Below, piece after piece: positions 39,021 to 62,861 of a stretch of DNA of 64,000 nt. Positions within the stretch are counted from its first letter, which is position 1. The number at the start of each line of letters is the position of its first letter. The stretch is from Akkermansia muciniphila (GTDB lineage Bacteria > Verrucomicrobiota > Verrucomicrobiia > Verrucomicrobiales > Akkermansiaceae). The position numbers were made by a program, and so were the translations under genes. Location: contig NZ_CP156688.1 in NCBI RefSeq assembly GCF_040616545.1, positions 1,612,001 through 1,676,000 on the forward strand, given 5' to 3'. The notes below the pieces were generated by a model that searched no databases, was not told the DNA's origin, and was given only the letters and a program-made list of their open reading frames with translations.

Positions 39021-39361
39021 CGGATTATGAATCCGGGGTCAACCCACAAATTTGATGGAAAATCCCTTAATGCGAATTTACCCCGGCATTTCCGGATGCT
39101 GTGCGCGTTGGAATGAAGGATTTCAGATAACTTTGTCTGAGATAATTTCCAGAGAACTATGAGGGGGATTGGAGAAGCCGGGAGGCCCTTGTTCCCAGCA
39201 GCGCGGCCACCAAAACACAGTGGAGGAACAACATACCCACGGTTTGAACGGGCCACGACCAGCTGGGAGCGGAGGCCTCCCGGCCTTCGTACTGAAATTC
39301 CTTCCGGAGCAAAGCAGGGGTGTTCTTTTCTCTTTCTCCCATGTAACGGATTCATAATCCG
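39021..39361. repeat. paired inverted 15-bp sites CGGAT-N5-ATCCG, element 1 (candidate invertible segment or MITE)
   Basis: CGGATTATGAATCCG (39021-39035) is repeated in exact inverted form as CGGATTCATAATCCG (39347-39361), enclosing 311 bp. Each copy is itself an inverted repeat with 5-bp arms. On the reverse strand a -35-like TTGACC (39042-39037) lies 1 nt inside the left site and TATGAA (39020-39015) lies just outside, so a promoter would read leftwards through the site. The enclosed DNA has no convincing gene and holds a 108-nt nested hairpin. The gap lies between ispF and yidC. No gene was recognised in the whole stretch 38929-39618. Confidence 0.75.
39177..39284. repeat. nested long inverted repeat inside element 1
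   Basis: GCCGGGAGGCC (39177-39187) pairs with GGCCTCCCGGC (39274-39284). Inside it TCCCAGC (39193-39199) pairs with GCTGGGA (39262-39268), and a further GGCC/GGCC pairing is possible. As RNA it would fold into a stable rod; as DNA it resembles the interior of a small non-autonomous element. No coding potential is seen. Confidence 0.6.
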
Positions 39362-39440
39362 CTAAGGTAGTTTCAGTGGGTGTTTTGGCATTTTCTGCCA
39401 GGCCGCTCCAATTAGCTACACAAAGATATATGACGAGAAA

Positions 39441-39476
39441 AACCGGGCTTCTCCGTGTGGGGAAGTCCGGTTTTTT
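39441..39476 (+). terminator. rho-independent terminator without an assigned gene
   Basis: AACCGGGCTTC pairs with GAAGTCCGGTT (one G-U pair), followed by six T near 39470-39476. It lies 80 bp right of element 1 and over 500 bp after ispF. Any transcript it ends must come from ispF read-through or from a start in or near element 1. Confidence 0.8.
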
Positions 39477-39551
39477 CATCAGGGGTGCGAAGGGCGCGGG
39501 CTCTGCTTTTCTTCCGGCGCTCCTGTAGCACGGTGCGGTTTTCCGCGTTTC

Positions 39552-39587
39552 CCCATAAAAAATGCGGCCGCGTGAACGGCCGCATTT
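39552..39587 (-). terminator. rho-independent terminator of yidC
   Basis: An 11-bp stem (39560-39570 with 39577-39587, core GCGGCCG) with a 6-nt loop. On the reverse strand it is followed by a run of six U and starts 31 nt after the yidC stop. Confidence 0.88.
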
Positions 39588-39618
39588 GCAGGGAAAAAGA
39601 GTGCTGAAAGCGCGCCCT

Positions 39619-41517
39619 TTACTTCTTTTTAGGCGTAATGTTGCGCATGTTGTGGCCTTTGCCCTTGCGTTGCTGTTCCTCCAGGGCCACGCGCTGCTGG
39701 TCCATCATCCGCTGGAAGAAGCCGGGCTTCTTCTTTTTGGCGGCGGTGAGCACGGGCATGGGAAGACGGCGGATCAAGGCCGTCTGGCCGATGGAAATAA
39801 GGTTCTGCGTGGTCCAGTACAGGGCCAGGGCGGAAGCGAAGTTATAACAGAACAGGAAGAACATGACGGGCATCAGGTTCATGATGATGCGCTGGGAGCG
39901 TTCCCCCGCCTGCGGGGTCATCCGCATCTGGATGATCATGGTGACCGCCATGATGAGCGGCAGGATGTTGATCGGAATGCCGAACAGGTGGCCCACGGTG
40001 TCAGGCAGGGACAGGTCCGTCATCCACAGGCAGAAGGGCTGGCCCCTCAGTTCCGCGGAGTACTGGAGAACGCGGTAGAAGGCGAAGAAGATAGGTATCT
40101 GGATGAGCATGGGCACGCAGCCGCTGGCCGGGTTGATGCCGTATTTCTGGTACAGCTTCATCATTTCCATGTTCACCTTCTGGGGCTCGTCCGGATATTT
40201 TTCCTTGAGCTTGGCCATTTCCGGCTGAATCAGGGACATGCGCTTCATGGCCATGTAGGACTTCTTGTGCAGCGGCCAGATGAGGGCGCGGACGACGATG
40301 GTCATGCAGATGATGGCCACGCCCCAGTTACCGAACCAGCCGTGGAAGAGGTTGAGCAGCCAGTTCATCGGCACGCTCAGGAAGACGAGCCAGCCGTAGG
40401 CCATGATGTCGCTGATGGCGGGGTAGGTGAGGTTCAGGTCGCGCAGGTAGGCGTTGAACTTGGGTCCCGTGTAAATGTCGTACGTGAGCGTCTTGATCTC
40501 GTTGGGCGCCATCGTCAGGTTGGGAATTCCCATGGCTACGGTAACGCCGGGCACCAGCGTGTTGTTTTCATGGGCCAGCGGGAATTCCTGGCGGGTGGCG
40601 TACACGGTGGAACCGTTGGACTTATCCTGGGGAAGAAGGATGGTGGCGTAATACTGGCTCATTACGCCGGCATAGGTCAGGTCCTGAAGGGGGCCTTCCA
40701 GAACGCGGGCCTTCGCTGTGCTGAAAATGCCGCCCGTGAAGTAGGAGGGAACTTCCTGCTCCAGGGAGCCGTCCGCATGGTAGAAGAAGTGGGTGTAGGT
40801 GTCCTTGGGTTCGCTTTTGGCGATGGGATAGGCGCTGCCGCCGAAGATGCCCATGTAGCGCAGGTCCTGGACATTGGGGGATTTGTTGAGCAGGGAGACG
40901 GTCAGGCGGATAAGGTATTTGCTGCCGGGCAGTACGTTTCCTTCCAGATTTTTGACGGGGTGCAGAGTATAGGTCTTGGAGATGAAAAGCTGCCGGGCGG
41001 CGTCATAGCCTTCCAGAGTGACGGAGTCCGCCGTGCGCTTGACTTCCCGGTATACCGTGTTGTCATAGGAAGGGTCCTGCGTGGCGTCCATGTTGAAGAC
41101 GAGCTCGCCGATTCCCCTCTGCTGGGCTTCGTTGATCGTAATGTTGTGGTCCGCGACCTTCTGGGAGTCCACAATGTCGTTGTGGAGGGTGACGGCGCCG
41201 ATGGAGCCGCCGATGCGGTTGAAGGTGTAGGTGATGAAGGGCTCCTGCCTGCCGTCCGCTTCCTGCGTGGCCGTCAGCGTAATCGGGCTGGTTTTGTCTT
41301 CTTCCAGGGCCTTGGCGGCGGAAGTCTGTTCCGGCGCGGCGGGGGAGGCGGGCGTTTCAGCGCCGGGAGCCGGGGCGCCGGCGGGAGCGGCGGCGGTTTG
41401 CTGGGCGGGGACGGGGGCTGCGGGAACGGGCTCTTCCTTTTTATTGTTGCCCATGTAAATGTTCAGGCCCAGAAGGGCGGCGCAAACGCCTATGATGATC
41501 CATGCTGTGCGATCCAT
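39619..41517 (-). CDS. yidC: membrane protein insertase YidC
   Basis: A 632-residue insertase of the long Gram-negative type. An N-terminal helix (WIIIGVCAALLGLNIYM) is followed by a Pro/Ala/Glu-rich linker, a periplasmic beta-sandwich domain (about 75-385) and the conserved five-helix core, with WGVAIICMTIVVRALIWPL, YQKYGINPASGCVPMLIQIP and MPVMFFLFCYNFASALALYW. It inserts membrane proteins with or without SecYEG. The C-terminus is basic (KGKGHNMRNITPKKK), which helps ribosome binding. Last gene of the rpmH-rnpA-yidD-yidC cluster. Confidence 0.96.
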   Translation of the reverse strand: MDRTAWIIIGVCAALLGLNIYMGNNKKEEPVPAAPVPAQQTAAAPAGAPAPGAETPASPAAPEQTSAAKALEEDKTSPITLTATQEADGRQEPFITYTFNRIGGSIGAVTLHNDIVDSQKVADHNITINEAQQRGIGELVFNMDATQDPSYDNTVYREVKRTADSVTLEGYDAARQLFISKTYTLHPVKNLEGNVLPGSKYLIRLTVSLLNKSPNVQDLRYMGIFGGSAYPIAKSEPKDTYTHFFYHADGSLEQEVPSYFTGGIFSTAKARVLEGPLQDLTYAGVMSQYYATILLPQDKSNGSTVYATRQEFPLAHENNTLVPGVTVAMGIPNLTMAPNEIKTLTYDIYTGPKFNAYLRDLNLTYPAISDIMAYGWLVFLSVPMNWLLNLFHGWFGNWGVAIICMTIVVRALIWPLHKKSYMAMKRMSLIQPEMAKLKEKYPDEPQKVNMEMMKLYQKYGINPASGCVPMLIQIPIFFAFYRVLQYSAELRGQPFCLWMTDLSLPDTVGHLFGIPINILPLIMAVTMIIQMRMTPQAGERSQRIIMNLMPVMFFLFCYNFASALALYWTTQNLISIGQTALIRRLPMPVLTAAKKKKPGFFQRMMDQQRVALEEQQRKGKGHNMRNITPKKK

Positions 41518-41570
41518 AATGTATATAGCTTGATTGAAGTTGGCAGGTAGGGAGGGGAGAGAAAGGTAAT

Positions 41571-41819
41571 TTAACGCGGCGTGCGGGCCGGAGGCACGGG
41601 ATCATACCCTGAGCCGCCCCACGGGTTGCATCTTAAAATGCGCCATGTTCCAAGAAGAAGGCCGCGCCATGCCCCGTGGAGCCGGACGGCCTGAATGAAG
41701 TACTGGGAGCAGGTGGGAGTGTAGCGGCAGCCGCTGCCGGGGCCCCCCAGTGCATGCAGGGGAGCGCTGATGAAGGTTTGATAGCCCCGTACCAGGGCAA
41801 TGAGCAGCCATTTCATCAT
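41571..41819 (-). CDS. yidD: membrane protein insertion efficiency factor YidD
   Basis: An 82-residue protein with an N-terminal amphipathic stretch ([20 protein letters not shown]), the [14 protein letters not shown] cysteine block, and [15 protein letters not shown] near the C-terminus, all diagnostic. Its ATG overlaps the rnpA stop as ATGA, which selects this start over longer in-frame options. It assists YidC and lies 53 bp before yidC. Confidence 0.94.
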
Positions 41820-42187
41820 GCGTTGTCTTTTTCCCGGGAAAGAAGTTGCAGTTTGAGCTTGCGGGCGGCTTTCTGCCAGTCCCGCTCCAGATCGGCATAG
41901 CTGGCTTCCACGGCCCGCCAGCGGAGGACGCACACCAGGTGCACGCCATTTTCAAAGGGGGCGCCGTGCTCCCTCAGGATTTCCCGCACGCGCCGCCGCA
42001 GTTTGTTGCGGACGACGGCGCAGCCGATTTTCTTGGTGCAGATGATGCCGAATTTGGACGGGTCTTCCGGATGTTCCAGCGGGGCTGCACTTAAAACAAT
42101 AAGCCGACCTGCTACGGATGGTCCCTCGTTGCGTACCCGGGCAAATTGAAATGCCCTGGTCATGCTTTGTTGACGAGTAAGACGCAT
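41816..42187 (-). CDS. rnpA: ribonuclease P protein component
   Basis: A 123-residue basic protein that partners with RNase P RNA in tRNA 5' maturation. [20 protein letters not shown] near the start, the RNR motif region [18 protein letters not shown] and the later [20 protein letters not shown] match the family. The frame stays open upstream to 42379 but only the part from MRLTRQQS onwards looks like RnpA, so I chose ATG 42187. It follows rpmH by 64 bp. Confidence 0.92.
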
Positions 42188-42251
42188 CTCCCGCGGGTCG
42201 GCCCGTGAAAAGAAGTTCCAAGGAGGCGTTAACCGAGTCCTGGTGGCTGAA

Positions 42252-42437
42252 TTAACGGCCGTGCTGGATGGTGTGGCGCTTGTACTGGATTTCGGCTCCC
42301 TTGGGAAGCAGGCGCTTGCGGCCTTTGGCGCGGCGGCGGCGGATGATGTCTGCTCCGTTCTTGGTAGCCATGCGTGCACGGAATCCGAACTGACGCTTGC
42401 GGCAACGCTTGGATGGTTGATAAGTCCTCTTGCTCAT
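42252..42437 (-). CDS. rpmH: 50S ribosomal protein L34, C-terminally extended
   Basis: The first 46 or so residues are L34 ([40 protein letters not shown]). The protein continues to 61 residues with [19 protein letters not shown], about 15 more than the usual 44-47. Whether the tail is lineage-wide I cannot tell. First gene of the rpmH-rnpA-yidD-yidC cluster; dnaA and oriC are not adjacent. Confidence 0.95.
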
Positions 42438-42514
42438 GATGTTGAAAGATGCTTCTTGTGAATTACTAGATTCAGTGCCGTCCGTCTAAGCGGCCTATGC
42501 ACAACCGGACGGAA

Positions 42515-42542
42515 AGGATAACTATTTTGGCTGTTTTGTCAA
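42515..42542 (-). promoter_or_regulatory. promoter of the rpmH-rnpA-yidD-yidC cluster
   Basis: On the reverse strand a perfect TTGACA (42542-42537), 16 nt, then TATCCT (42520-42515, 4 of 6). Transcription would start near 42508, about 70 nt before the rpmH ATG. Confidence 0.7.
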
Positions 42543-42647
42543 TCCGTCAGGCTATTAATTTGCCGTTTTTCTTGTTGGTGGAACTGGATTTAGTGATATT
42601 TATGATTGATAGTCAATAATTTTCTCTTTTGAGGAAAGGCTGTTGTT

Positions 42648-44759
42648 TTACAGAAAGAGCAGTTCCGCATACGTGGGAACGGGCCACAGGTCTGCGTCCG
42701 TCAGGCCTTCCAGCATGTCGATCGTGCTTCTCAGATTGTCCATGCCGGACTGAATGTCCTTTGTGCTGGCGCGGTCCACGGCCTGGCGGAGTTCTTTCAC
42801 CTGGGTGGGGAGGAGGTCCAGCAGCGTGCCGATCTGGTTGGCGCGGTCCACGGTGGATTTCATGCCCGCCTTGATCCCGGCGGCTTTCATCTGAGCGATG
42901 GCGGTGGTGAGCTGCGTGAGCTGCTCCGTCACGGCGGGAATGTACAGGGTCTCCACCATCAGCAGGGCGGTTTCCGCTTCAATGCTGATTTCCTTGTAGA
43001 ATATTTCCGTCTGGATTTCATGGCGGGCGTGGAGCTCCACGGGGCTGACCACCTTGTATTTTTCAAAGAGGGCCTTGGCTTTGGGCGTTTCCAGGGCGGC
43101 CAGGGCTTCAATGGTGCCGGGGACGTTGGGGAGCTTGCGGCGTTCCGCCTCTTCAATCCAGGCCTCGCCGTAGCCGTCTCCGCTGAATAGGATGCGCTTG
43201 TGCTTCTTGATGATGCCCTGGAGGTGCTTGTTCAGCGTGGCGTGGAATTCCTCCGGGTTGTCCTTGACGGGTTCCAGAAGGGTGCAGATTTCATCCAGGC
43301 TTTCCGCCACGATGGTGTTGAGCACCGTCATGGGCCATGCGCAGGTCTGGGAGGAGCCTACGGCGCGGAACTCGAATTTGTTGCCCGTGAAGGCGAAGGG
43401 GCTCGTGCGGTTGCGGTCGGAGGCGTCCAGCGGGAACATGGGCAGGGTGTCCACGCCGATGTTGATGGTCTTCAGCGTGCGCGCCTTTTTGGTGCCGCCC
43501 TTTTCAATCTGCTCAATGATTTCATCCAGCAGGTCCCCCAGGAAAATGGAGATGATGGCGGGAGGCGCTTCGTGGGCGCCCAGGCGGTGCTCGTTGCCGG
43601 ATTTGGCTACGGAGGCGCGCAGCAGGTCGGCGTGTTCGTCCACGGCCTTGATGGTGGCGCAGAGCAGGGTGAGGAAGATGGCGTTTTCCTGCGGGCTGGA
43701 ACCGGGATTCAGCAGGCTGCCGTAACCGGGCGCGGAAAGGGACCAGTTGTTATGCTTGCCGGAGCCGTTCATGCCGGAGAAAGGCTTTTCATGCAGCAGG
43801 CAGACCATGTCATGCTTGTTGGCGGTTTTCCGGAGCACTTCCATGACCAGCATGTTGTGGTCCACGGCCAGGTTCTGGCTTTCAAAAATGGGCGCGATTT
43901 CAAACTGGCCCGGCGCCACTTCATTATGGCGTGTTTTGGCCGGAATGCCGAGCTTCCAGAGGGCTTCGTCCACGTCCACCATGAATTCCAGCACGCGGTC
44001 CTTGATGGAGCCGAAGTAGTGGTCTTCCATCTGCTGGTGCTTGGGAGGAACATTGCCGAAGAGGGTGCGGCCGCACATCATCAGGTCCGGGCGCAGGGCG
44101 TAAAGCTGCTTGTCCACCAGGAAGTATTCCTGTTCCGCGCCCAGATCCGCGCTGACGTGGATGTTTTCCGGCCCTCCGAAGCAGGCGAGCAGCCGTTTGG
44201 CCTGGCGGGTGACGGCGGTCATGGACCGCAGAAGGGGGGTCTTTTTATCCAGCGCCTGTCCCTTGTAGGAGCAGAAGGCGGTGGGGATGCAAAGGGTGGC
44301 GCCGTTTTCCGTGCGCTTGATGAAGGCGGGGCTGGTGGGGTCCCACGCGGTGTAGCCGCGCGCTTCAAAGGTGGCGCGCAGGCCGCCGGAGGGGAAGCTG
44401 GAGGCGTCTGGCTCTCCCTGCACCAGGCTCTTTCCGGAGAACTTGAGCTCCAGGTTTCCTTCCGGGTCCACGTCCACGAAGGAGTCATGCTTTTCCGCCG
44501 TGCTTCCGTTCAGGGGCTGGAACCAGTGGGTGTAGTGGCTGGCGCCCTTTTCCAGGGCCCACGTCATCATGGCCTGGGCCACTTCATTGGCAATGTCCGG
44601 GTCCAGCTTCTCGTCCTTGCGGATGGTTGCCAGCAGTTTCTTGTAAACGGGACGCGGCAGGTAATCGCGCATGGTCTCCATATTGAAGACATCCTGACCG
44701 TAAATTTCCGCAATAAAAGTTGCGGCGTCGCCAACATCGGAAGGTGGGTTTGTATGCAT
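42648..44759 (-). CDS. glnN: type III glutamine synthetase
   Basis: A 703-residue GSIII, the long form found in Bacteroidota, cyanobacteria and Verrucomicrobia; it makes glutamine from glutamate and ammonia in a dodecamer. Markers include SFPSGGLRATFEARGYTAWD, the catalytic-core SADLGAEQEYFLVD, KTRHNEVAPGQFEIAP, FSGMNGSGKHNNWSL and the ATP-site DRNRTSPFAFTGNKFEFR. I start at the ATG at 44759 (MHTNPPSDVG); a TTG at 44798 would add 13 residues and has only a weak AAGG before it. The gene stands alone; no PII gene is next to it. Confidence 0.94.
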   Translation of the reverse strand: MHTNPPSDVGDAATFIAEIYGQDVFNMETMRDYLPRPVYKKLLATIRKDEKLDPDIANEVAQAMMTWALEKGASHYTHWFQPLNGSTAEKHDSFVDVDPEGNLELKFSGKSLVQGEPDASSFPSGGLRATFEARGYTAWDPTSPAFIKRTENGATLCIPTAFCSYKGQALDKKTPLLRSMTAVTRQAKRLLACFGGPENIHVSADLGAEQEYFLVDKQLYALRPDLMMCGRTLFGNVPPKHQQMEDHYFGSIKDRVLEFMVDVDEALWKLGIPAKTRHNEVAPGQFEIAPIFESQNLAVDHNMLVMEVLRKTANKHDMVCLLHEKPFSGMNGSGKHNNWSLSAPGYGSLLNPGSSPQENAIFLTLLCATIKAVDEHADLLRASVAKSGNEHRLGAHEAPPAIISIFLGDLLDEIIEQIEKGGTKKARTLKTINIGVDTLPMFPLDASDRNRTSPFAFTGNKFEFRAVGSSQTCAWPMTVLNTIVAESLDEICTLLEPVKDNPEEFHATLNKHLQGIIKKHKRILFSGDGYGEAWIEEAERRKLPNVPGTIEALAALETPKAKALFEKYKVVSPVELHARHEIQTEIFYKEISIEAETALLMVETLYIPAVTEQLTQLTTAIAQMKAAGIKAGMKSTVDRANQIGTLLDLLPTQVKELRQAVDRASTKDIQSGMDNLRSTIDMLEGLTDADLWPVPTYAELLFL

Positions 44760-45032
44760 CTTGGTAGGGAACGCGCCAAAAGGCTCGGAATCTACCAAAC
44801 CTTAAAAGGGGGGTTTTTGCAAGCCGAATCCTGCCGCAGAGGTTGACGGAGGGACGTTTCAGGGAACAAAAGTTCCGGGTGCGCCCAATTTCCGCCTTGT
44901 GGAGGGAGGCTGCCTTTCACGCTCCCCCTGTACGGAGAAATGGCGCGGAATTGTTCCGGCGGCCTTTTCTCCCGGAAGGGGCTCCCGTCCGGGACTGCCT
45001 TGATCCGCAGATGAAAGGGAGGGGAATACCCG

Positions 45033-45869
45033 CTATTTCAACGGCCCTACCGTGATTTTCTGGCACATGGTATGAGTCTGTCCGGAGGCGAGGGGAATGC
45101 AGCGCGACCCGGCATTCCCCACTTCCACGCACAGAAATTTGTTCCAGGATGCCGCGCCCAGGTCCGCCATGTTTTTGGCACCCTGCTGTCCCGGGTTCCA
45201 GACGATGACGGAAGAGGCGTGGCTCCGTTCCACCGTGATGGCGCGGTTCAGCACGAGGTCCTCCAGCACTGTTTTTCCCGAGCAGGCGGGGCAGTCGTAA
45301 ACGCGGTCCAGGCACCCCAGGGGCGCCAGCGGGCGTTCTCCGTGCTTCATGGGCCGGGCCGCTTCTTCCCGGAACGGGATGCCGTCCAGTCCGTGAACGC
45401 GGCATTTGGTCAGGTTGCCCACGGCAAAGTAGTTGTGGAAGGCTTCCGTGAGCTTGCAGGGTTGCGTGCGCGCGGTGGTTTCCAGCTTCATGGCCAGCGT
45501 GCGGCCCAGGGCCAGGCGCAGGATGGCGGCGGGGAAAGCCTCGTCTTCCGGATAGAAGGCCAGGGAAAGCAGGACGTTCCCTTCCTTGTCCGTCTCCTGG
45601 TGGTGGAGGCGCCATTCGGAGATGCGCGCCACGCCGTGGGACGGGGCGTTTTTCCGCGGTCCGAACCACGGCCAGCAGATGGGAATCCCGCCGCGGATGG
45701 CCTTGCCGGGAGCAAAGACCGCATGGGGGGAAAGGAAGAGGCATTCCTCCTGTCCTTCCGGCTTCCATGACGTGAGGTGCGCGCCCTGAAGGCACAGCGT
45801 GGCGGTACAGAGCGGTGTTTCCACGTCCAGGAAAGTGATTCCCTGGTCTGTTGCGCGCGGAGTAATCAT
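45033..45869 (-). CDS. D-hexose-6-phosphate mutarotase (YeaD-like)
   Basis: A 278-residue aldose-1-epimerase-family protein that interconverts anomers of hexose 6-phosphates. LQGAHLTSWKP, the AIRGGIPICWPWFG block, PSHGVAR with the catalytic His, and EAFHNYFAVGNL fit the glucose-6-phosphate 1-epimerase subgroup. Its ATG overlaps the pdxH stop as ATGA. Last gene of a five-gene reverse-strand run starting at asd. Confidence 0.9.
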   Translation of the reverse strand: MITPRATDQGITFLDVETPLCTATLCLQGAHLTSWKPEGQEECLFLSPHAVFAPGKAIRGGIPICWPWFGPRKNAPSHGVARISEWRLHHQETDKEGNVLLSLAFYPEDEAFPAAILRLALGRTLAMKLETTARTQPCKLTEAFHNYFAVGNLTKCRVHGLDGIPFREEAARPMKHGERPLAPLGCLDRVYDCPACSGKTVLEDLVLNRAITVERSHASSVIVWNPGQQGAKNMADLGAASWNKFLCVEVGNAGSRCIPLASGQTHTMCQKITVGPLK

Positions 45870-46504: not shown

Positions 46505-46524
46505 GATGGGTTGGAGGATAAATG

Positions 46525-47388: not shown

Positions 47389-47403
47389 GAATGAAATTGC
47401 GGC

Positions 47404-48300
<897 letters not shown>

Positions 48301-53586: not shown

Positions 53587-53837
53587 GAGTTGAATTTAAC
53601 CCTGATGTTTCCGGAATGGAACTTCAAACGGATGGAATATGGAGGGGAATCTACTATTTCTGCACGCTGATCGGCGTATCTTCTTATTTTATTTATTGCC
53701 AACGGTTTGCATAATGTGTTGAAAAATGTGCATCATTCTGGGAGTGAACATGTTAAACCGGAACAGCCTGCCGCATGACTGGAGAAGTCTTTCCGGGAGC
53801 CTTGCCGAAGGAGTGCGGGTGTGGTTGGATACGGGGC

Positions 53838-54383: not shown

Positions 54384-54547
54384 GTTTTTTCCGGAAAAAG
54401 AGGCGTCGGAAATGTTTTTGGCTCTTGAGCCTGCTCTCGTGCTGTTTTTGCGGGTTGGTGTTTTATTTCATTATTGTCGTATTGCACCGTTTTTTCCGCC
54501 TTCAACCCGCCGGAAATGTTGAATATCATGTATGAAGTATCTACCAA

Positions 54548-54731
54548 CGGATAACAAATCCGGTGTTTTAATAAAAACAGACAGCACGTATTAAAACATT
54601 CTAAAATTCAATAAATAATGAATAATCCTATTTTTAACGGAATGGGTTCAAGGGAGATACGTCCTCTTTTTAAAAAGAAATATAAATCTTTATTCCTCAA
54701 AATCCACGCTTGACACCGGATTTGTTATCCG
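54548..54731. repeat. paired inverted sites CGGAT-N5-ATCCG, element 2 (candidate invertible promoter)
   Basis: CGGATAACAAATCCG (54548-54562) and its exact inverse CGGATTTGTTATCCG (54717-54731); the identity extends to 19 bp (54548-54566 against 54713-54731). They enclose about 150 bp of AT-rich DNA without a gene. A perfect TTGACA (54710-54715) lies 1 nt inside the right site and points at the PEP-CTERM gene, whose ATG is 13 nt beyond the site; the matching position at the left site has no such hexamer. The -10 outside (TTCAGT) is weak. Upstream bases 54384-54547 show no gene. Confidence 0.78.
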
Positions 54732-54744
54732 CTTCAGTGGGCAC

Positions 54745-55545
54745 ATGTTGAACCCCCACGGTCATTTAATATTCAAGGGAGCGGTGGTTGCGGCGGCTTT
54801 GTGCCTGGTTTCCGGCGCGGAGGCTGCTTCTCTGCTGTACGGACTGGATTTCAACCAGCTTGGGAGCGGCCAGAACCTGGTCAATTTGGGAAGCGGATCC
54901 ACGGCTATTTCGAAAACCACCGGTTATATGAACTGGAGCAATGCGATCACGCCCATGCCGGACGGCGGTTATTCCCATTGCCCCAACGGAGGAACGTTCA
55001 ATATCACGAACTCCGATGGCATTGACGGCCTGAATTTTTCCACCGGGTTCAGCGTGGGCATTCACATGTATTACAGTTCTTCCAACGCGGCCTGGAAGGA
55101 TGCTTTTTCCATGACCATTGCGGGTACGACGATTCGGGTGGAAATGACGGCTGCCAACAAATGGGTGATTTACAACGGGGCAGGCATTGGCATAGCAGAC
55201 GGAACCGAGCTGTTTGCCGCCAACGATGATGAATGGAATTACCTTGGGCTGACGTTCAAGGGAAACGAGATGCAGGTTTATCACGATGGCGAGCTTGTCA
55301 AAACGGTGACGACCAATCTTTCCGATGATTCCAAAGTGACCAGCATTAAGGGCAGCGGAGAGCACAATACCGCGGCCAACGGCCTTTTTGTTGATAATCT
55401 GGCCGTGTATGACGGCGTATTGAATGGGGATGATTTTGCCTACCTGAATACGCACGACATGCCTTTGTCCATCCCGGAACCGGCCACCGCTACGCTGGGT
55501 CTGATGGGGCTGACGGCGCTTCTGATGCGCCGCAAACGCGCCTGA
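54745..55545 (+). CDS. PEP-CTERM surface protein with LamG-like fold
   Basis: A 266-residue exported protein. After a signal peptide (KGAVVAAALCLVSGAEA) comes a jelly-roll domain of the concanavalin/LamG type (GLNFSTGFSVGIHMYYSS, NYLGLTFKGNEMQVYHDGEL, GLFVDNLAVYDGVL). The C-terminus is a PEP-CTERM sorting signal: SIPEPATATLGLMGL then a hydrophobic helix and MRRKRA, recognised by an exosortase and anchoring or releasing the protein at the cell surface. Glycan binding is plausible from the fold. No Shine-Dalgarno site is seen; the ATG is only 13 nt from element 2. Confidence 0.85.
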   Translation: MLNPHGHLIFKGAVVAAALCLVSGAEAASLLYGLDFNQLGSGQNLVNLGSGSTAISKTTGYMNWSNAITPMPDGGYSHCPNGGTFNITNSDGIDGLNFSTGFSVGIHMYYSSSNAAWKDAFSMTIAGTTIRVEMTAANKWVIYNGAGIGIADGTELFAANDDEWNYLGLTFKGNEMQVYHDGELVKTVTTNLSDDSKVTSIKGSGEHNTAANGLFVDNLAVYDGVLNGDDFAYLNTHDMPLSIPEPATATLGLMGLTALLMRRKRA

Positions 55546-55563
55546 GCTTGAATTTTTTGAATA

Positions 55564-55604
55564 AAAGGGCCGTTCCACATTTCTGCGGAACGGCCCTTTT
55601 TGTT
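55564..55604 (+). terminator. rho-independent terminator after the PEP-CTERM gene, probably bidirectional
   Basis: A 13-bp perfect stem (55564-55576 with 55587-55599, core GGGCCGTTCC) with a 10-nt loop, five T after it and A residues before it. It lies between two convergent genes. Confidence 0.88.
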
Positions 55605-55640
55605 GTAAAAGAAGGATGATTTCCGGGTTCGGAGGAGTAA

Positions 55641-56477: not shown

Positions 56478-56571
56478 GCCCGCATGATAGCCCGCGGCAG
56501 GAGCCTGCCAAGGAAAAAAGCCGGGGTTTCGCGCCACCCGCGTTCACAGTCTCCGTTCCGTCCCCGGCGTG

Positions 56572-57246
56572 CTAGCGGGTGGAGATTTTTTCCATATTGT
56601 CCGCGACCATGGCCGCCAGTTCTTCCACCTTCATGGAGAGGGCTTGTGCGGCGCGCCGGTAAAGCTCCGGAAGGGCCTCCGGGTGTTCGTCGGATTCCAG
56701 GGCCAGGCGTTGGCGCGGAATGGAGGAGAGGATGTCCGGGCGTTCCATCTCCCGCGGCCCCACGGAAAGGAGCCAGTTGCCGGAAGGAAGCTGTGCGGCG
56801 GGGTTCAGCGCTCCTGTCCACCCATGGAGTACGGCTTTCAGCGCAGGGTATTCCCCCAGGATGCCGGCCAGCGTTCCCCATGCGCGGCAGCAGTGCAGGG
56901 CGGCGGGGCGGTCCAGGCGCACGGCCAGCTCCAGATGCCGTTTCAGCGCTTCCCTTTGCACGGGCAGTCCCGGAATGCCCCGGCGGCATTTGTCCAGCCC
57001 GGTTTCTCCAATTCCCGCATGGGGAAAACGGTGCAGGAAGGATTCCAGCAAGCGTATTTCCTCCTGCCATGTATTCGGATTCAGGCGCCACGGATGAATG
57101 CCGAAGAAAGGGGTAACGCGTTCATCCTCTTCCGCCAGCAGGGCCACCTGTTCCCAATCCGCCGGGCAGGTGCCGCAGATGAAGCGGGGCCCCACGCCGG
57201 AGATGGCCGGGGCCGGGTGGGTGTGGGCGTCCGGCAGGTTCATCAT
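56572..57246 (-). CDS. TatD-family metal-dependent hydrolase
   Basis: A 224-residue TIM-barrel hydrolase. Metal ligands are all visible: DAHTHP at the start, Glu in IGETGLD, His in ALHCCRAWG, His in LHGWTG and Asp in ALESDEHPE. TatD proteins act as 3'-5' DNA exonucleases or deacylases. The protein is shorter than typical TatD (about 260). It starts 3 nt after the antiporter stop. Confidence 0.88.
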   Translation of the reverse strand: MMNLPDAHTHPAPAISGVGPRFICGTCPADWEQVALLAEEDERVTPFFGIHPWRLNPNTWQEEIRLLESFLHRFPHAGIGETGLDKCRRGIPGLPVQREALKRHLELAVRLDRPAALHCCRAWGTLAGILGEYPALKAVLHGWTGALNPAAQLPSGNWLLSVGPREMERPDILSSIPRQRLALESDEHPEALPELYRRAAQALSMKVEELAAMVADNMEKISTR

Positions 57247-57249
57247 GTA

Positions 57250-58977
57250 TCAGTGGGACAGCGTGGGCGCCTCCACGGGTTCAATAATATCAAAACTCCG
57301 TTTTGCCAGGCGTACCGCGGCGGCGCCCGTTTCCATTTCGTCATGGATGACGTTGGTGATGCCCGCATGATGCAGTAAAGCCACTTCCGACCGGAATTTG
57401 GCGCGTGCAATCACCGTGATGTCCGCGTTGACACCCTTGATCTGCATGTAGGTGGACAGGGCGGGGGCCGGGTCCGGGAACGTGAAGGCGATGAGCCGCG
57501 CGGTGCGGATGCCCGCCAGGTCCATGGTGATCTGGTGCTGGATGTCGCCCAGGAAGGCCAGATGGCCGTCGTTGAGCAGGGCTTTCACAGTGTCCGCGTT
57601 CAGGTCAATGATGATGCAGGGGATGCCGTACTGGGCCAGGTTTTCATGCAGCCGCCTGCCTACCGGGCCGTAGCCGCAGATGATGGCGTGGTCCTTGATG
57701 CCCTCCACGCGCGTGATCATGGTTTCCACGCTGAGGCGCTCCCGTTTTGTTTTCAGGCCGGGAATGCGCACCAGCAGGGGGGTGAGCTTCCGCGCCGCCT
57801 TCATCAGCAGGGGCGTCATGCCCATGGAGACGGCGGCAATGGCGTACACATTCGTGGTCACCAGCGCCGGAATGGGGGTGATCTCCTGCATGAAGGGGAT
57901 GAGCACCAGGGAGAATTCCCCCACGTTGGTCAGCGCGGTGGAGGCCATGATGCCCATGCGCCCCGGTATTTTCAGGAAGCTTGCGGCTACGATGCAGGCC
58001 ACGAATTTGATGGCCAGGACAAAGGCGGCGAAGGTAGCCACATGGCCGAGGTGTTCCCACAAGTCGTCAATGTCAATCAGCAGCCCGGCGGAGACGAAGA
58101 AGATGGTCAGGAAAAGGTCCTTGAAGGGGAGCACTTCACTGAGGACGCGGTGGCTGTAGTAGGAACTACTGACGAAGAGCCCCGCGGTGAAGGCCCCCAG
58201 GGCGATGCTCAGGCCCAGCAGGCTGGCCAGCATGGCGATGCCGGAGCAGATGGCGAACACCATCAGGGTGAAGAGTTCCCGGCTTTTTGTCCGGGCCACG
58301 GCCAGCATGATGCGCGGGAGCAGGTAATGGCCGATCAGCCATGCGGCGCCCAGGAAGACCAGGCCCCGCAGCACGGCCATGCCGATGTTGAGCGCGGTTG
58401 ACCATGAGCTGGGCGACGCGGTGAATATCTGGGGCATGATCGCCACCAGCATGATGGCGGCAATGTCCTGGAACAGGGCGATGCCCACCGCCATTTTTGC
58501 CCCGGAGGTGCCGCTGAGGCCGAATTCCTGGAAGGATTTCAGCGCCACCGCCGTGGAGGAAAGGCCCATGATGGCCCCTACCGTAAGGGAATGGCTCATG
58601 TCCATGCCCGTGGCGTAATGAAGCCCCAGGCCGAAGGCGGCGGTGCAGATGAACATCTGGATGCCCCCGCCGACCAGAGCCGTTTTCCGCAGGTGCCTGA
58701 GTTCGTCAATGGAAAATTCCAGCCCCAGCGTGAACATGAGCAGGATAATGCCCACCTCGGAAAGGGCCTGGATGCTGACGTCGGAATTGGGGATGTGGTC
58801 CAGAATGCCGCAGTTGGCCAGAATCACCCCGCAGATGAAATAGCCCGCCAGCAGGGACTGGCGGAAATGGGCCAGAACCAGGGCAATCGCAATGATGCCC
58901 ATGAAGACGACGGTCAGCAGGGTGAAAAAGGGAGGCGCGGCATTGGGGCCTCCGGAAGCCAGCAGAGAGAGAACCAT
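57250..58977 (-). CDS. KefB/KefC-like monovalent cation:proton antiporter with TrkA-N domain
   Basis: A 575-residue membrane protein. Twelve or so helices (about 1-400) form a CPA2 antiporter, with LTLGLEFSIDELRH, the MGLSSTAVALKSFQEFGL block and LFQDIAAIMLVA, the conserved acidic pair region. The C-terminal cytoplasmic RCK/TrkA-N domain has AIICGYGPVGRRLHENL and a ligand pocket ending in DLNADTV. It moves K or Na against protons, perhaps gated by nucleotide. Spacing to the neighbours is 18 and 3 nt, so it is in an operon. Confidence 0.92.
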   Translation of the reverse strand: MVLSLLASGGPNAAPPFFTLLTVVFMGIIAIALVLAHFRQSLLAGYFICGVILANCGILDHIPNSDVSIQALSEVGIILLMFTLGLEFSIDELRHLRKTALVGGGIQMFICTAAFGLGLHYATGMDMSHSLTVGAIMGLSSTAVALKSFQEFGLSGTSGAKMAVGIALFQDIAAIMLVAIMPQIFTASPSSWSTALNIGMAVLRGLVFLGAAWLIGHYLLPRIMLAVARTKSRELFTLMVFAICSGIAMLASLLGLSIALGAFTAGLFVSSSYYSHRVLSEVLPFKDLFLTIFFVSAGLLIDIDDLWEHLGHVATFAAFVLAIKFVACIVAASFLKIPGRMGIMASTALTNVGEFSLVLIPFMQEITPIPALVTTNVYAIAAVSMGMTPLLMKAARKLTPLLVRIPGLKTKRERLSVETMITRVEGIKDHAIICGYGPVGRRLHENLAQYGIPCIIIDLNADTVKALLNDGHLAFLGDIQHQITMDLAGIRTARLIAFTFPDPAPALSTYMQIKGVNADITVIARAKFRSEVALLHHAGITNVIHDEMETGAAAVRLAKRSFDIIEPVEAPTLSH

Positions 58978-58995
58978 GGCAGTTGGAAAGGGAGG

Positions 58996-59850
58996 CTAGG
59001 GAATGATAATGAGATTGATTTCCGGCGGGCAATTGAAGCGGCCCGGCCCCATGTAGCCTATGCCGCGGGTGACGAAGACCTGCCTGCCTTCATAGGGATA
59101 AAAGCCGGAGTACATCGTTTCCCCTTCCGAGGCCAGCAGGGGGGTGGAAGAGAAGGGCAGCCTGATCTGGCCGCCGTGCGTGTGGCCGGAAAGCATCAGG
59201 TCCCAGCGGTAGCCGTCCAGCAGCTCCCTCCCCTTGGGGTTATGGGAAAGGACGATGGTGGGCATGGCGGAGTCTTCCGCAAAGGTGAGCGGGGTCATGC
59301 ACCGCTCCGGAAAGAAGTCGCCCTCCCGTACGTCCCCCAGCCCCACCAGCTTGAACTCCGCGTTCCCCAGCCTGGGAATGGTGACGAAGGCGGCGGAATT
59401 CCTGAGCAGGGTGAAGCCGCCTTCCTTCAGGATGCGCTCCACGTTGTCCGCCAGGGCCATGTCATGGTTGCCCAGGCATGCGTAGGCCGGGGCGATGGAG
59501 GAGAGCTTCTTCATCTGCGTGATGTAGTCCCCCGCATGGGTGGCCCGCATAAAATCCGTGTAAAGATCCCCCAGGAACACGATCATGTCAGGCCTGGCCT
59601 GTTCCGCCATGCGTGCCGCTTTTTCCAGCAGGGGAAGGTTGGTGTGGACGTCTGACAGCACCAGGATGCGCAGTCCGGAGAGGTCCGGAACGCAGCCCGC
59701 GGGCGCGGTGTTTTCATTCAATTCCAGATGGTTGGCTTCCCAGTGCATGTAGGAGGCCAGCAGGGAGCCCAGCAAAATGGCTGCCGCGGCTGCGTACAGG
59801 AGCTTGCGGAGCAGGGAGCGTTTTTTGGCGGGGGTAGAGTCAGTGGTCAT
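58996..59850 (-). CDS. membrane-anchored calcineurin-like metallophosphoesterase
   Basis: A 284-residue protein with a basic N-terminus and one anchor helix (RKLLYAAAAAILLGSLLASYM). All metallophosphoesterase motifs are there: LSDVHTNLP, FLGDLYTD, CLGNHDMA, IVLSHNPKG and SGHTHGGQIRLP. It resembles the YkuE or LpxH-like group, acting on lipid or nucleotide phosphodiesters. The start ATG overlaps the M29 peptidase stop as ATGA. Confidence 0.9.
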   Translation of the reverse strand: MTTDSTPAKKRSLLRKLLYAAAAAILLGSLLASYMHWEANHLELNENTAPAGCVPDLSGLRILVLSDVHTNLPLLEKAARMAEQARPDMIVFLGDLYTDFMRATHAGDYITQMKKLSSIAPAYACLGNHDMALADNVERILKEGGFTLLRNSAAFVTIPRLGNAEFKLVGLGDVREGDFFPERCMTPLTFAEDSAMPTIVLSHNPKGRELLDGYRWDLMLSGHTHGGQIRLPFSSTPLLASEGETMYSGFYPYEGRQVFVTRGIGYMGPGRFNCPPEINLIIIP

Positions 59851-60956
59851 GATTGGGCGGGATTGAGAATAGCCAGTTCCGGAAGGGTGAACAAGCCGTT
59901 GCGGCGCACCAGCGCGCCGTCCAGGTAAATATCTCCTCCTCCGGCCTCTTCCGTCTGGATGCACACCATGTCCCAGTGGATGCGGGACTGGTTGCCGTTG
60001 TCCGCCACGTGGTAGGCCTGTCCCGGCGTCAGGTGGAAGGAGCCGGAGATCTTTTCATCAAACAGGATGTTGCGCATGGGACGGGTGATGGCCGGATTCA
60101 CGCCGAAGGCGAATTCCCCCAGCCGCCGCGCGCCGGGGTCCGTATCCAGAATGGCGTTGAGTTCCGCGGTCCTGTCTCCCGCTTCCGCCTGTACGACCAG
60201 GCCGTTTTCCAGCGTCAGGCGGATGTTGTCAAAGGGGATGCCCTGGAACAGGCTGGGGGTGTTGAAGGAAATGCGGCCGTTGGCGCTGTCAATAACGGGT
60301 GCGGTAAATACCTCCCCGTCCGGCAGGTTGCATTCCCCCGCGCAGGGGATGGCGGGCAGCCCCTTGATGGAAAAGGAAATATCCGTTCCGGGTCCGGTGA
60401 TGCGCACGTGGTCCGCCGCCTCCATCAGGGCGGCCAGCTTCTGCATGGCGGGGCGCAGGGCGGCGTAATCCATCAGGCAGGTGCTGAAATAAAAATCCTC
60501 AAACTCTTCCGTGCTCATAGCGGCCTGCTGGGCCATCCCTTCCGACGGCCAGCGCAGCCCGCACCACCGCGTGTGGCGGATGCGCCGCTGGGAGACGGGG
60601 TTCATGGCCTTCATGGCGGCGGCCATGTTCTGCTGGGGAACGGAAGAGAGTTCAAAAGCGTTCCCGCCGCCGCGTATTTCAATATAGGCGTCCATCTCCT
60701 CCATTTCCGCCAGGCGGTGGCGGCTGATGATGCCGTACTGCTCCTCCGTGGCTCCGGAAAGCATCTCCCGGTTCAGCCGGGACTGGTTCAGGCGCAGGAA
60801 GGGCAGGGCGCCCGCGGCGCGCACTTCCCGGATAAGGGCTATTCCCATTTCCTCCGGAATATCCGTTAATTCCAGCAGAACCCGGTCTCCCGGACGCAGG
60901 GTGGTGGAATACCCTGCAAGCTGGGCCGCCAGGGCCTGAAAACGGGTGTCTGTCAT
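59847..60956 (-). CDS. M29 family aminopeptidase
   Basis: A 369-residue thermophilic-type metallo-aminopeptidase. The metal-ligand set can be seen: Glu in CAGECNLPDGEVF, Glu in RRLGEFAFGVN, His in SGSFHLTPGQAYH, and the closing SRIHWDMV with His and Asp; the core also shows RISFNTPSL. I start at ATG 60956 (MTDTRFQ), preceded by AAGGGC; an upstream in-frame start would add 12 unlikely residues. It heads the five-gene cluster ending in the HEAT-like gene. Confidence 0.9.
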   Translation of the reverse strand: MTDTRFQALAAQLAGYSTTLRPGDRVLLELTDIPEEMGIALIREVRAAGALPFLRLNQSRLNREMLSGATEEQYGIISRHRLAEMEEMDAYIEIRGGGNAFELSSVPQQNMAAAMKAMNPVSQRRIRHTRWCGLRWPSEGMAQQAAMSTEEFEDFYFSTCLMDYAALRPAMQKLAALMEAADHVRITGPGTDISFSIKGLPAIPCAGECNLPDGEVFTAPVIDSANGRISFNTPSLFQGIPFDNIRLTLENGLVVQAEAGDRTAELNAILDTDPGARRLGEFAFGVNPAITRPMRNILFDEKISGSFHLTPGQAYHVADNGNQSRIHWDMVCIQTEEAGGGDIYLDGALVRRNGLFTLPELAILNPAQS

Positions 60957-61037
60957 GCCCTTATTAGGCGAATAACGACGCCTTTTTGTCAAGCCGGAGA
61001 CTTGCCACGGGCAAAAAACTGTGGTTTCATCCCCCGG

Positions 61038-61625
61038 ATGTCCAGATTGCCCAAATTAGGAATACTCGGTTCCGGTTCCGGTTCCAACTGCCAGTCCATT
61101 TATGATGCCATTCAGTCCGGCTCTCTCCGGGCGGAAATCGCCGTGGTGATGTCTGACAATCCGGACGCGTACATTCTGGAACGCGCCCGTTCCTGGGGCA
61201 TCCCGGCGGAGGTGATCGACTGCGGGGGATTCAAAACCAAATTCCCGGAGGAATCCCAGGCCGCCGTCGCCGCGCGGCTGAAGGAATACGGCGTGGACTG
61301 CGTTTGCCTGGCGGGATTCATGCGCCTGGTGAAGCATCCGCTGCTGAAGGAATTCCCCTCCCGCATCCTGAACATTCATCCTTCCCTCCTTCCCTCCTTC
61401 CCCGGGCTTCACGCCTGGGAGCAGGCCGTGAACGCCGGAGCGGCGGAGAGCGGCTGTACCGTTCATTATGTGGATGACGGCATGGATACCGGTCCCATCC
61501 TGGGGCAGGCGCGCGTGCCGGTGCTGCCGGGAGACACCCCGGAAAGCCTGCACGCCCGCATTCAGGAGCAGGAGCACACCCTTTACCCCGCCATGATTGC
61601 CCGCGTTCTGGAAACGCCTGCATAA
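61038..61625 (+). CDS. purN: phosphoribosylglycinamide formyltransferase 1
   Basis: Transfers a formyl group from 10-formyl-THF to GAR in purine synthesis. The 195 residues contain LGSGSGSNCQSIYDA, the catalytic NIHPSLLPSFPGLHAWEQ with His, and TVHYVDDGMDTGPIL with the conserved Asp. ATG 61038 gives the normal N-terminus (MSRLPKLGILGSG); an in-frame ATG at 61002 would add 12 residues. Divergent from the M29 peptidase gene. Confidence 0.94.
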   Translation: MSRLPKLGILGSGSGSNCQSIYDAIQSGSLRAEIAVVMSDNPDAYILERARSWGIPAEVIDCGGFKTKFPEESQAAVAARLKEYGVDCVCLAGFMRLVKHPLLKEFPSRILNIHPSLLPSFPGLHAWEQAVNAGAAESGCTVHYVDDGMDTGPILGQARVPVLPGDTPESLHARIQEQEHTLYPAMIARVLETPA

Positions 61626-61753
61626 CCCGCTGCACCTTTTGGCGGGAGGGCGTCCGGAGCGCGGATGACAGGATGACTGATTCTCTTGTCTTGTTCTGTG
61701 AACGGAATCCGTTAAAAAGGTGTCCTCTTTTCAAACAAAGGATAAAAACAACC

Positions 61754-62587
61754 ATGAAGATGAACCCTTCCATCGCCCTGTTTGCCGTTTCCGCCCTTCT
61801 GGCGGGTGTGGCGGGCGCGCAAGAAAAGGCCGCTGAAACTCCGGTGGCCGACCAACCCAAACAAGAGAAAGAAATTACTGTGTCTCCCGAACAGATGAAA
61901 AAGGACCTGGGCTATTTTCTGGGTTTCCAGAGCGGCCAGCAGCTCGGCTCCATCCCCACCCTTACTTTTGATGACCTGGACCAGGAATCCTTCCTGCAGG
62001 GCATCAAGGACGGCATGGTCCGCAAGCCCGCCAAGGACCAGGAACAGCTGAAGCCCGCCCTGGACGCGTTCCAGAAGCAGATTGACGAACGCATCTCCGC
62101 CAAGGCCAAGGCCAATCTGGAAGCCAGCAAGAAGTTCATGGAGGAAAACGGCAAGAAGGAAGGCGTGACTACCACGAAATCCGGACTCCAGTACAAGGTA
62201 GTGAACAAGGGCGGCGAAGAAAAATTTGACGAAAAGAAGTTCAAGAACCCCATGTTCAAGGTGAAGTACAAGGGCACGCTGCTGGACGGCACCGTGTTTG
62301 ACGACACCAAGGGCAAGGATGTGGAACTTCCCCTCCAGGTCATCCCCGGCTTTGCGGAAGCGCTGACCACCATGCCCGTCGGTTCCAAGTGGATCGTGTA
62401 CATTCCTTCCGAGCTGGCCTATGGTGAAAACACCCCCGGCGCTCCGATCGAACCCAACTCCCCCCTCATCTTTGATCTGGAGCTGGACGGCATTTCCGAA
62501 GCTCCGGCCCCCCAGGGCGGCCCCATGAGCATTTCTCCGGAACAGCTTCAGGAGATGCTCAAGCAGCAGAGCGGCGGACAGCAGTAA
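61754..62587 (+). CDS. exported FKBP-type peptidyl-prolyl isomerase (FkpA/Mip-like)
   Basis: A 277-residue protein with a signal peptide (MKMNPSIALFAVSALLAGVAGA), an N-terminal helical dimerisation region (KDLGYFLGFQSGQQLGS ... FQKQIDERISAKAKANLEASKKFMEE) and an FKBP domain (about 140-260) with VKYKGTLLDGTVFDDT, VIPGFAEALTTMPVGSKW and YIPSELAYGEN. It helps folding in the periplasm. The Gln-rich tail SPEQLQEMLKQQSGGQQ is unusual but short. Start chosen at ATG 61754; upstream codons do not resemble a signal peptide. Confidence 0.92.
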   Translation: MKMNPSIALFAVSALLAGVAGAQEKAAETPVADQPKQEKEITVSPEQMKKDLGYFLGFQSGQQLGSIPTLTFDDLDQESFLQGIKDGMVRKPAKDQEQLKPALDAFQKQIDERISAKAKANLEASKKFMEENGKKEGVTTTKSGLQYKVVNKGGEEKFDEKKFKNPMFKVKYKGTLLDGTVFDDTKGKDVELPLQVIPGFAEALTTMPVGSKWIVYIPSELAYGENTPGAPIEPNSPLIFDLELDGISEAPAPQGGPMSISPEQLQEMLKQQSGGQQ

Positions 62588-62612
62588 AAGGACAAACAGC
62601 CCTCTTTAATTT

Positions 62613-62642
62613 AAGGCCGTTCCCATGGGAACGGCCTTTTTC
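62613..62642 (+). terminator. rho-independent terminator of the FKBP gene
   Basis: A perfect 26-nt palindrome with core GGCCGTTCCC (62613-62638) followed by T residues. It lies 25 nt after the stop codon. Confidence 0.88.
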
Positions 62643-62679
62643 ATGTTCCGGACAGACGGTCTTTTGGTTGGATAAATGG

Positions 62680-62861
62680 CGGATTGGAAATCCTGCCATC
62701 TTGTCGAATTCTGCTTAAGATATTTGTCGTGAGAAATTTGAGATATTATCTAACAAAATATTCTGGATGATGATTCAATTTAACTTCTTTCTTAATATTC
62801 GCATGAAGCGTTTATGTAGAGTTTATAAGGAAAATAAGCTTGCCAACGGATTTCCAATCCG
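62680..62861. repeat. paired inverted sites CGGAT-N5-ATCCG, element 3 (candidate invertible promoter)
   Basis: CGGATTGGAAATCCT (62680-62694) and CGGATTTCCAATCCG (62847-62861) are inverse copies with one mismatch at the end of an arm. They enclose 152 bp of AT-rich DNA without a gene. The -35-like TTGCCA at 62840-62845 sits 1 nt inside the right site and TTTTAT follows just outside. The flanks of the right site (CCAA before, GGT and T-run after) are like those of the left site of element 2. Confidence 0.72.

Follow-up and report, generated by a model that had tools for sequence, protein, structure and literature searches.

Within 64,000 nucleotides of the Akkermansia muciniphila chromosome (contig NZ_CP156688.1, positions 1,612,001-1,676,000, here called the window), an earlier note based on the letters alone had pointed to six copies of the motif CGGAT-N5-ATCCG, arranged as three inverted pairs with common arms. 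Their five-base cores were said to differ between loci and to be inverse complements within each pair, as expected of partner sites of one recombinase. This raises the questions of whether the pairs are recombination sites, which enzyme would act on them, and what their inversion would switch. Comparison of genome sequences indicates that CGGAT-N5-ATCCG pairs are sites of site-specific inversion. The best explanation of our findings, which we consider very probable, is that the three pairs belong to a set of at least 47 invertons (segments bounded by such sites), recombined in trans by a tyrosine recombinase of 363 amino acids and equipped with split promoters.

Inverted site pairs with matching cores

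All six copies were present at the coordinates given in the earlier note (Table 1), and the one arm mismatch described for the site at 62680 was confirmed. With one mismatch allowed, the window holds 8 site matches against 2.92 expected, a number reached in 0 of 100 shuffles. The genome (one contig of 3,055,113 bp) contains 89 exact sites and no match to the reversed control pattern, and a reversed-arm control gave no pair in 471,640 bases, relatives included. After removal of one 13-bp tandem duplicate, neighboring exact sites formed 36 pairs with a spacing of 155-432 bp. The whole-genome search for core matches proposed in the earlier note found reverse-complementary cores in 35 of these 36 pairs, with 25 distinct cores among the 35 matched pairs; 10,000 shuffles of the partners averaged 1.6 such matches and reached no more than 7. 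The core rule noticed in the window thus holds genome-wide. Its lone exception arises where two invertons adjoin, both of which carry one arm mismatch; most of the 16 seemingly single sites, taken together with this exception, have a partner with one arm mismatch. In the genome stretches examined, 47 invertons were resolved, 35 exact and 12 with one arm mismatch. Six exact sites were left unpaired, of which four were inspected and two lay outside the fetched stretches.

The pair finders behind the set of 47, the orientation comparisons, and the comparison of window loci across genomes themselves demand core identity, which counts against taking matching cores in these sets at face value. The 35 of 36 count, the counts of pairs defined by arms only, and the arm-swap comparison at pair 3 described below are free of this requirement. 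In the arms-only counts, cores matched in 48 of 52 pairs of this genome, 14 of 14 of the relative G055, and 21 of 26 of the relative G047. Among the nine mismatches, six are cross-combinations of two neighboring invertons and three involve a spurious one-mismatch site. Cores are mostly but not wholly private, several loci sharing some of them (TTGGA/TCCAA, for example, at four). The site consensus is CGGATT-N3-AATCCG with weak signal beyond it, and the window pairs, like the Akkermansia inverton family, are inverted motif pairs lying 100-450 bp apart.

In one inverton (L072, G000 C1 1359257-1359453), the right site is present twice at a distance of 13 bp, both copies having the same core, possibly a trace of unequal exchange. 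Inside the pair 1 segment, at window positions 39177-39310, lies a repeat of about 130 bp whose 23-bp inverted ends are 83% complementary, resembling repetitive extragenic palindromes or miniature inverted-repeat transposable elements (MITEs); similar stretches recur many times elsewhere in this genome and in G055 and G084.

Inversion between genomes

Flanks and inner segments were compared with those of G055, from the same species, and G047, from the same genus, for the first-listed sites: 13 stretches of G055 (65 exact sites in the genome) and 20 of G047 (79 exact sites). Three of 12 comparable loci were inverted relative to G055 and nine were not, and 7 of 19 loci were inverted relative to G047, with 12 in the same orientation. 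Counting both relatives, 10 of 31 comparisons thus showed orthologous segments in opposite orientations. The comparison of row 2592966 with L128 was excluded from this count because L128 is the ortholog of 1998618. Among the 11 other genomes bearing an ortholog of the candidate recombinase, pair 2 was found in four (G047, G071, G107, and G084) and was inverted in all four, with its -35 element at the left end. In G055, the two site edges of pair 2 coincide with the ends of two contigs.

Pair 3 records the position of the crossover. In G047, G107, G156, G038, and G113, its segment is unflipped and the sites read GGAAT-TTATA-ATCCT on the left and CGGAT-TATAA-ATCCG on the right, whereas G071, with the segment flipped, has the sites GGAAT-TTATA-ATCCG and AGGAT-TATAA-ATCCG. 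Flipping left the outer arms in place and exchanged the inner ones; thus, the crossover took place between the arms, inside the core. Five different cores occur at this locus across 12 genomes, matching within the pair in 10 of the 10 genomes for which both sites were fetched; in G084 and G147, the left site alone was seen. The left site may hold up to three arm mismatches while the cores still match. Joint changes of both partner cores were seen at 704482 (TAGGA here, TAAGA in G055, with flanks 97-99% identical) and at 2735368 (TCGTA here, TCGCA in G047), but these are weaker evidence than the arm swap because the finder needed matching cores.

Other observations pull in the opposite direction: 21 of the 31 comparisons keep the same orientation, no pair 2 was present in the fetched stretch of 6 of the 11 other genomes, and the evidence for inversion comes from comparison between assemblies, in which not every locus appeared in both states. 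Window pair 1 had a single orientation in all comparisons. Taken together, the pair-matched cores, the inversions between genomes, and the inner-arm swap support the recombination reading of the earlier note.

A candidate recombinase acting in trans

The remark that the window lacks a recombinase gene held, as no match to PF00589 or PF00239 lies within it. Searches with both families identified five recombinases in the genome: XerC-like and XerD-like proteins, an integrase located by phage-like genes, a serine recombinase of the Mpi family, and a tyrosine recombinase of 363 amino acids, which is most likely the recombinase for these sites, judging from its distribution and its relatives. Among 65 genomes of the genus, 13 have 36-88 strict sites, one has 11, and 51 have 0-8; other genera of the family have 0-5. 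Orthologs of the 363-residue protein (90-100% identity) are encoded in 12 of the 65 genomes, all of which are site-rich (36-84 strict sites), and adjoin the same 445-residue gene in 12 of 12. The catalytic set R-K-(H/D)xxR-H-Y is complete in the candidate. Its residues R206, K233, D293, R296, H319, and Y329 are invariant in 30 of 30 aligned proteins, D293 occupying a position where H is usual. The structural model (predicted local distance difference test score, 88) matches the folds of lambda Int, Tn1549 Int, XerA, and XerH.

Many paralogs of this protein, with 37-49% identity to it, occur in the genus. We surveyed 79 of them, 18 returned as loci and 61 chosen from a longer list, high scores first and spread over genomes; two with too little upstream sequence were excluded. 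A palindromic, core-matched inverted pair lies just upstream of 61 of the remaining 77 genes, compared with 2 of 91 in the downstream control and 0 of 455 shuffles. The score threshold was chosen by the analyst, and a first detector had given 53 of 79 before the search window was widened past the chosen start codon. The arm type mostly tracks the recombinase clade (AGGATT, CGGATT, and CGCTTT groups; exceptions, L162 and L173/L175) in a quick tree that came with long-branch warnings and for which the first residue of the proteins was set to M. A divergent frame with an autotransporter-like leader was seen at 5 of 13 paralogs inspected by eye. There seems to be a local form, consisting of a recombinase, its own switch, and a divergent neighbor gene, and the 363-residue protein looks like a family member without a site of its own that would serve many loci in trans.

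Several findings weigh against this assignment. No adjacent site pair was found at the 12 orthologs, and the adjacency evidence thus comes from paralogs only; the recombinase near a site pair that the earlier note had proposed to look for was found at the paralogs and not at the orthologs. Upstream pairs went undetected at 16 of the 77 paralogs. Genome G128 has 88 sites and no ortholog (best relatives, 44-45% identity), and G144 has 11 sites and a best relative at 46%, so that other family members must serve there. The association between orthologs and sites may reflect the shared history of one clade, and the cross-genome survey of recombinases covered the 363-residue protein, the Mpi-like gene, and the prophage integrase. 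The same association and the sites of G128, together with the XerC- and XerD-like proteins encoded in this genome, would also fit a reading in which the invertons are as described but XerC/XerD or another enzyme recombines them, the 363-residue protein being a bystander shared within the clade. Xer proteins are, however, expected in all relatives, and yet most genomes of the genus have almost none of the sites; the upstream pairs of the paralogs and the clade-wise arm types are not accounted for by a bystander; and most of the 12 ortholog genomes lack both the serine recombinase and the prophage integrase. We therefore consider this reading unlikely and retain the 363-residue protein as the candidate.

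The Mpi-like serine recombinase and the prophage integrase were rejected as general invertases because of their patchy presence. The Mpi-like gene occurs at ≥77% identity in only 4 of the 65 genus genomes and, among the 12 ortholog genomes, in this one only, with 27-28% relatives in G084 and G147; the prophage integrase is patchy (≥93% identity in 4 of the 12). The Mpi-family gene (L024, G000 C1 2343210-2343827; NF009949) is sporadic in the genus, and no CGGAT-N5-ATCCG site lies within the 3.4 kb fetched around it. Genome G128 (L038, L157, L166) holds its 88 strict sites in 2.2 Mb, and L038, whose own switch has CGGATT arms, is a natural candidate for the invertase of that genome.

The 363-residue protein had no match in 72,556 plasmid records. 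Four phage records carry relatives at 26-39% identity, and the recombinase family may be of phage origin. The integrase of Akkermansia phage Chambord (L206, ON453894) shares 39% identity with the candidate across 92% of its length.

A predicted split promoter

The sequence TTGAC occurs at exactly one end of 37 of the 47 invertons and at both ends of none. Within the inner 40 nucleotides of the 94 ends, it points outward 39 times, 33 of these stopping exactly 2 nucleotides before the site, and was found 0 times on the opposite strand. Outside the site, TA stands at offset 1 in 30 of the 94 ends, compared with a mean of 5.5 at offsets 2-23 (p 6.5e-15). Counted by inverton, this TA is present at one end in 28, at both ends in 1, and at neither in 18. 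Ends with TA face a signal-peptide-like open reading frame in 23 of 30 cases and other ends in 16 of 64 (p 3.5e-6). With TTGACN followed by 1 nucleotide, the 15-bp site, and 1 nucleotide before TAnnnT, the spacer amounts to 17 bp. This placement points to a putative split promoter, with the -35 element inside the segment end, the -10 element outside, and the site filling the spacer. As the -35 is at one end and the -10 position lies outside, inversion would move the -35 toward or away from a fixed -10. Predicted switch states in the assembly are ON for 11 and OFF for 13 of 24 scorable invertons, 23 being unscorable.

A -10-like hexamer (at least 4 of 6 positions) lies outside the distal end of 40 of 61 recombinase-paralog switches and on the recombinase side of 5 of 61. 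At 51 of these 61 switches, the -35 is directed at the recombinase and faces away from the outside -10, and at 4 of 61 it has the reverse direction. Nearly all their neighbors thus read as OFF, which would fit a mostly-off or one-at-a-time scheme.

The pattern is incomplete in ways that tell against a split promoter at every locus: exact TTGAC is absent from 10 of the 47 invertons (three of these have TTGAG or TTGCC), TA is missing at the -10 position in 18 of 47, and the -10 of pair 2 (TTCAGT) is poor. Known invertible promoters of Bacteroides lie wholly inside the segment, and a complete promoter could likewise be present inside each segment here, the TTGAC at the end being an accessory or recombination motif; an outside -10 signal at only 28 invertons (one end) and 1 more (both ends) of 47 would agree with this. 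Such a motif would not explain why TTGAC points outward at a fixed distance from a single end, why TA sits outside exactly where the spacer becomes 17 bp, or why the paralog switches have their -10-like hexamers at the distal end. We regard an internal promoter as quite unlikely and keep to the split arrangement.

Proposed mechanism

According to our model, the 363-residue recombinase would bind the common CGGAT/ATCCG arms and exchange strands inside the 5-bp core (about 7 bp with the flanking T/A). Exchange within the core would require identical cores, so that partner sites would recombine best with each other. Because the arms are palindromic and the core is of odd length and never self-complementary, the direction would be fixed and the outcome would be inversion, not deletion. 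Each inversion would shift the -35 TTGAC between the segment ends while the -10 stays outside by the gene; with the -35 beside the -10, the promoter would be complete and ON, and with the segment flipped, it would be broken and OFF. The predicted targets are autotransporters, PEP-CTERM and other exported proteins, capsule and exopolysaccharide enzymes, and a small RNA at pair 1 and at a second locus. The earlier note's proposal of a recombinase that reads common arms in trans fits these findings, with the 363-residue protein as the putative and presumably single enzyme.

The alternatives named in the earlier note, MITE or transposon termini and operator pairs joined by looping without recombination, would suit short-spaced inverted pairs with operator-like palindromic half-sites but are hardly tenable, since they leave unexplained the inversions between genomes, the swapped inner arms, and cores that vary between loci yet match within pairs (25 distinct ones, where transposon termini would be expected to share one terminal sequence), and since the cps1 member of the family flips in reads and polymerase chain reaction (PCR) assays according to the available text of PMC13343947.

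It is tempting to go further, and on balance we lean toward a scenario in which a recombinase family whose members in other species of this genus lie next to an invertible -35 of their own and a divergent neighbor gene gave rise, in one species group, to a site-less, fixed, single-copy master invertase for at least 47 largely private split promoters, including two small-RNA loci. Cores would be copied between partners as mutations arise, each locus retaining its own address, and the two conserved small-RNA loci would add phase-variable post-transcriptional regulation.

A predicted small RNA at pair 1

No convincing reading frame faces pair 1, beyond which lies the 3' end of a convergent neighbor. 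The pair precedes a conserved, terminator-ended RNA, and thus its inversion probably switches a small RNA, as far as structure and conservation can tell. A conserved linker joins the hairpin of this RNA to an intrinsic terminator. The fold z is -5.27, and the consensus fold has 24 pairs, 6 of them with double changes. A model built from the copies of 10 of the 12 recombinase-ortholog genomes finds 24 copies, all within these 12, and two marginal matches (E 5e-4 and 1e-3) in the other 53 genomes, under stricter search filters that may lose weak matches. Twenty-two of the 24 copies directly follow a site pair; one of the others is at a contig end that falls exactly at the site, and one is a tandem second copy. 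Rfam gave five weak matches in the pair 1 region, all under the gathering scores, and no acceptable family.

At the second RNA locus, the -35 points toward the RNA in six genomes and away in two and is unscorable in one; L298, whose contig starts right after the site, was left out of the ON count. Two weaker copies, in G139 and G028, read as OFF. At the pair 1 locus itself, the switch of the yidC-side RNA, 12 of 12 genomes have the -35 facing away from the RNA and read as OFF.

Target genes

Pairs 2 and 3 lie upstream of genes for surface-type proteins, whereas pair 1 precedes the structured RNA. The leader of the pair 3 target, MRLHLPPSLR, resembles by eye those of autotransporter-like genes at other invertons, and no Pfam match was found in the 370 amino acids available. 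In a survey of 20 chosen inverton-adjacent proteins, Pfam matches comprised autotransporter/passenger repeats, PEP-CTERM, Laminin_G_3, glycosyltransferase family 2, bacterial sugar transferase, acyltransferase_3, PMT_2, and one HZS_alpha middle domain; 3 of the 20, the pair 3 target among them, had no match. Elsewhere in the window, a ribosomal RNA operon (16S, two tRNAs, 23S, and 5S) occupies positions 3274-8602 of the plus strand.

Table 1. Sites, predicted promoter elements, targets, and candidate recombinase (window coordinates unless marked as chromosomal)
Feature	Position	Strand	Details
Pair 1 left recombination site	39021..39035	.	Core TATGA; pattern match
Pair 1 -35-like element	39037..39042	-	TTGACC; left end of segment, pointing away from RNA; read as OFF
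Pair 1 right recombination site	39347..39361	.	Core TCATA; pattern match
Pair 1 predicted fixed -10 element	39363..39368	+	TAAGGT (3/6 to TATAAT); outside right site, before RNA
Conserved structured RNA	39368..39478	+	About 105 nucleotides, intrinsic terminator at end; predicted phase-variable small RNA; model R1 match
Pair 2 left recombination site	54548..54562	.	Core AACAA; pattern match
Pair 2 -35 element	54710..54715	+	TTGACA; just inside right site; read as ON
Pair 2 right recombination site	54717..54731	.	Core TTGTT; pattern match
Pair 2 target gene	54745..55545	+	266 amino acids; signal-peptide-like start; Laminin_G_3 and PEP-CTERM
Pair 3 left recombination site	62680..62694	.	Core TGGAA; inner arm with one mismatch
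Pair 3 -35-like element	62840..62845	+	TTGCCA; just inside right site; read as ON
Pair 3 right recombination site	62847..62861	.	Core TTCCA; pattern match
Pair 3 -10-like element	62863..62868	+	TTTTAT (4/6); 17 bp from pair 3 -35
Pair 3 target gene	62891..64000	+	Large, exported-looking; open to window end
Candidate tyrosine recombinase	chromosome 2,196,297-2,197,385		363 amino acids; single copy; PF00589 39 bits, cut-off 27.1

Comparison with published invertons and known systems

The earlier note had asked whether this site family was already described in Akkermansia, and it is: PMC13343947 and PMC11892184, citing Jiang 2019, describe it. The available text of PMC13343947 attributes the motif CGGATT..AATCCG to Jiang et al. 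2019 and reports flipping of the cps1 inverton in reads, PCR, and quantitative PCR; the words "recombinase" and "invertase" are absent from its main text. According to the available text of PMC11892184, inverton group 138 has this motif too, is enriched for PEP-CTERM, and changes orientation in mice; it also reports an Akkermansia promoter motif resembling that of Jiang, which may overlap the TTGAC element. Group 138 and cps1 thus share with the invertons of this genome the motif and a location near PEP-CTERM, autotransporter, and capsule genes, and reads show both orientations for the members described in those papers, whereas the pair-specific core rule, a recombinase for the CGGATT..AATCCG group, the split of -35, site, and -10, and an RNA target are not stated in the available text of either paper. 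Published inverton work, in its available text, sought recombinase links by adjacency within 5 kb. The available text of PMC9241678 reports the tyrosine recombinase XerD as enriched in one A. muciniphila lineage and does not contain "inversion" or "invertible." In our literature search, no recombinase for Akkermansia invertons appeared by title or abstract among the matches listed, a text search for split -35/-10 invertons gave no match, and no paper fitted a phase-variable small RNA with an invertible promoter by title or abstract. Jiang 2019 or Chanin 2024 may have described part of the promoter element, or the enzyme, earlier. The site motif and its flipping were thus known, and the enzyme, the split promoter, and the small-RNA switch are proposed here.

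Much work has been devoted to A. muciniphila as a gut symbiont, and the flipping of its capsule switch is already in the literature. The invertons would turn on and off surface proteins, genes of the capsule, and probably small RNAs. With a single candidate gene, strains locked in the ON or OFF state become feasible and the role of phase variation becomes testable. The rule of common arms and private cores would explain how one recombinase serves dozens of loci without scrambling the chromosome. A split promoter would be a compact switch whose ON or OFF state could be read off an assembly, and one inversion would alter many messages through the phase-variable small RNA, provided that this RNA is real.

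The serine recombinase Mpi of Bacteroides fragilis is a master invertase for many invertible surface promoters, and the system proposed here resembles it in placing many such promoters under one trans-acting invertase, but the candidate is a tyrosine recombinase. It would share with FimB/FimE and PsrA the action of a tyrosine recombinase on short inverted repeats. Those invertases act on one or few loci, whereas the loci served here would number 47 or more, with common arms and mostly private cores. Lambda Int (PDB 1z1b; E 3.6e-10, 17% identity) and Tn1549 Int (PDB 6emz; E 5.4e-9, 11% identity) are the best fold matches of the modeled candidate, but these enzymes integrate and excise and do not invert short promoter segments. 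In promoter architecture, there is a likeness to circularized insertion sequences, whose junction promoter unites a -35 and a -10 at a set spacing; that promoter belongs to a transient transposition intermediate, whereas the arrangement proposed here would be a reversible switch in the chromosome.

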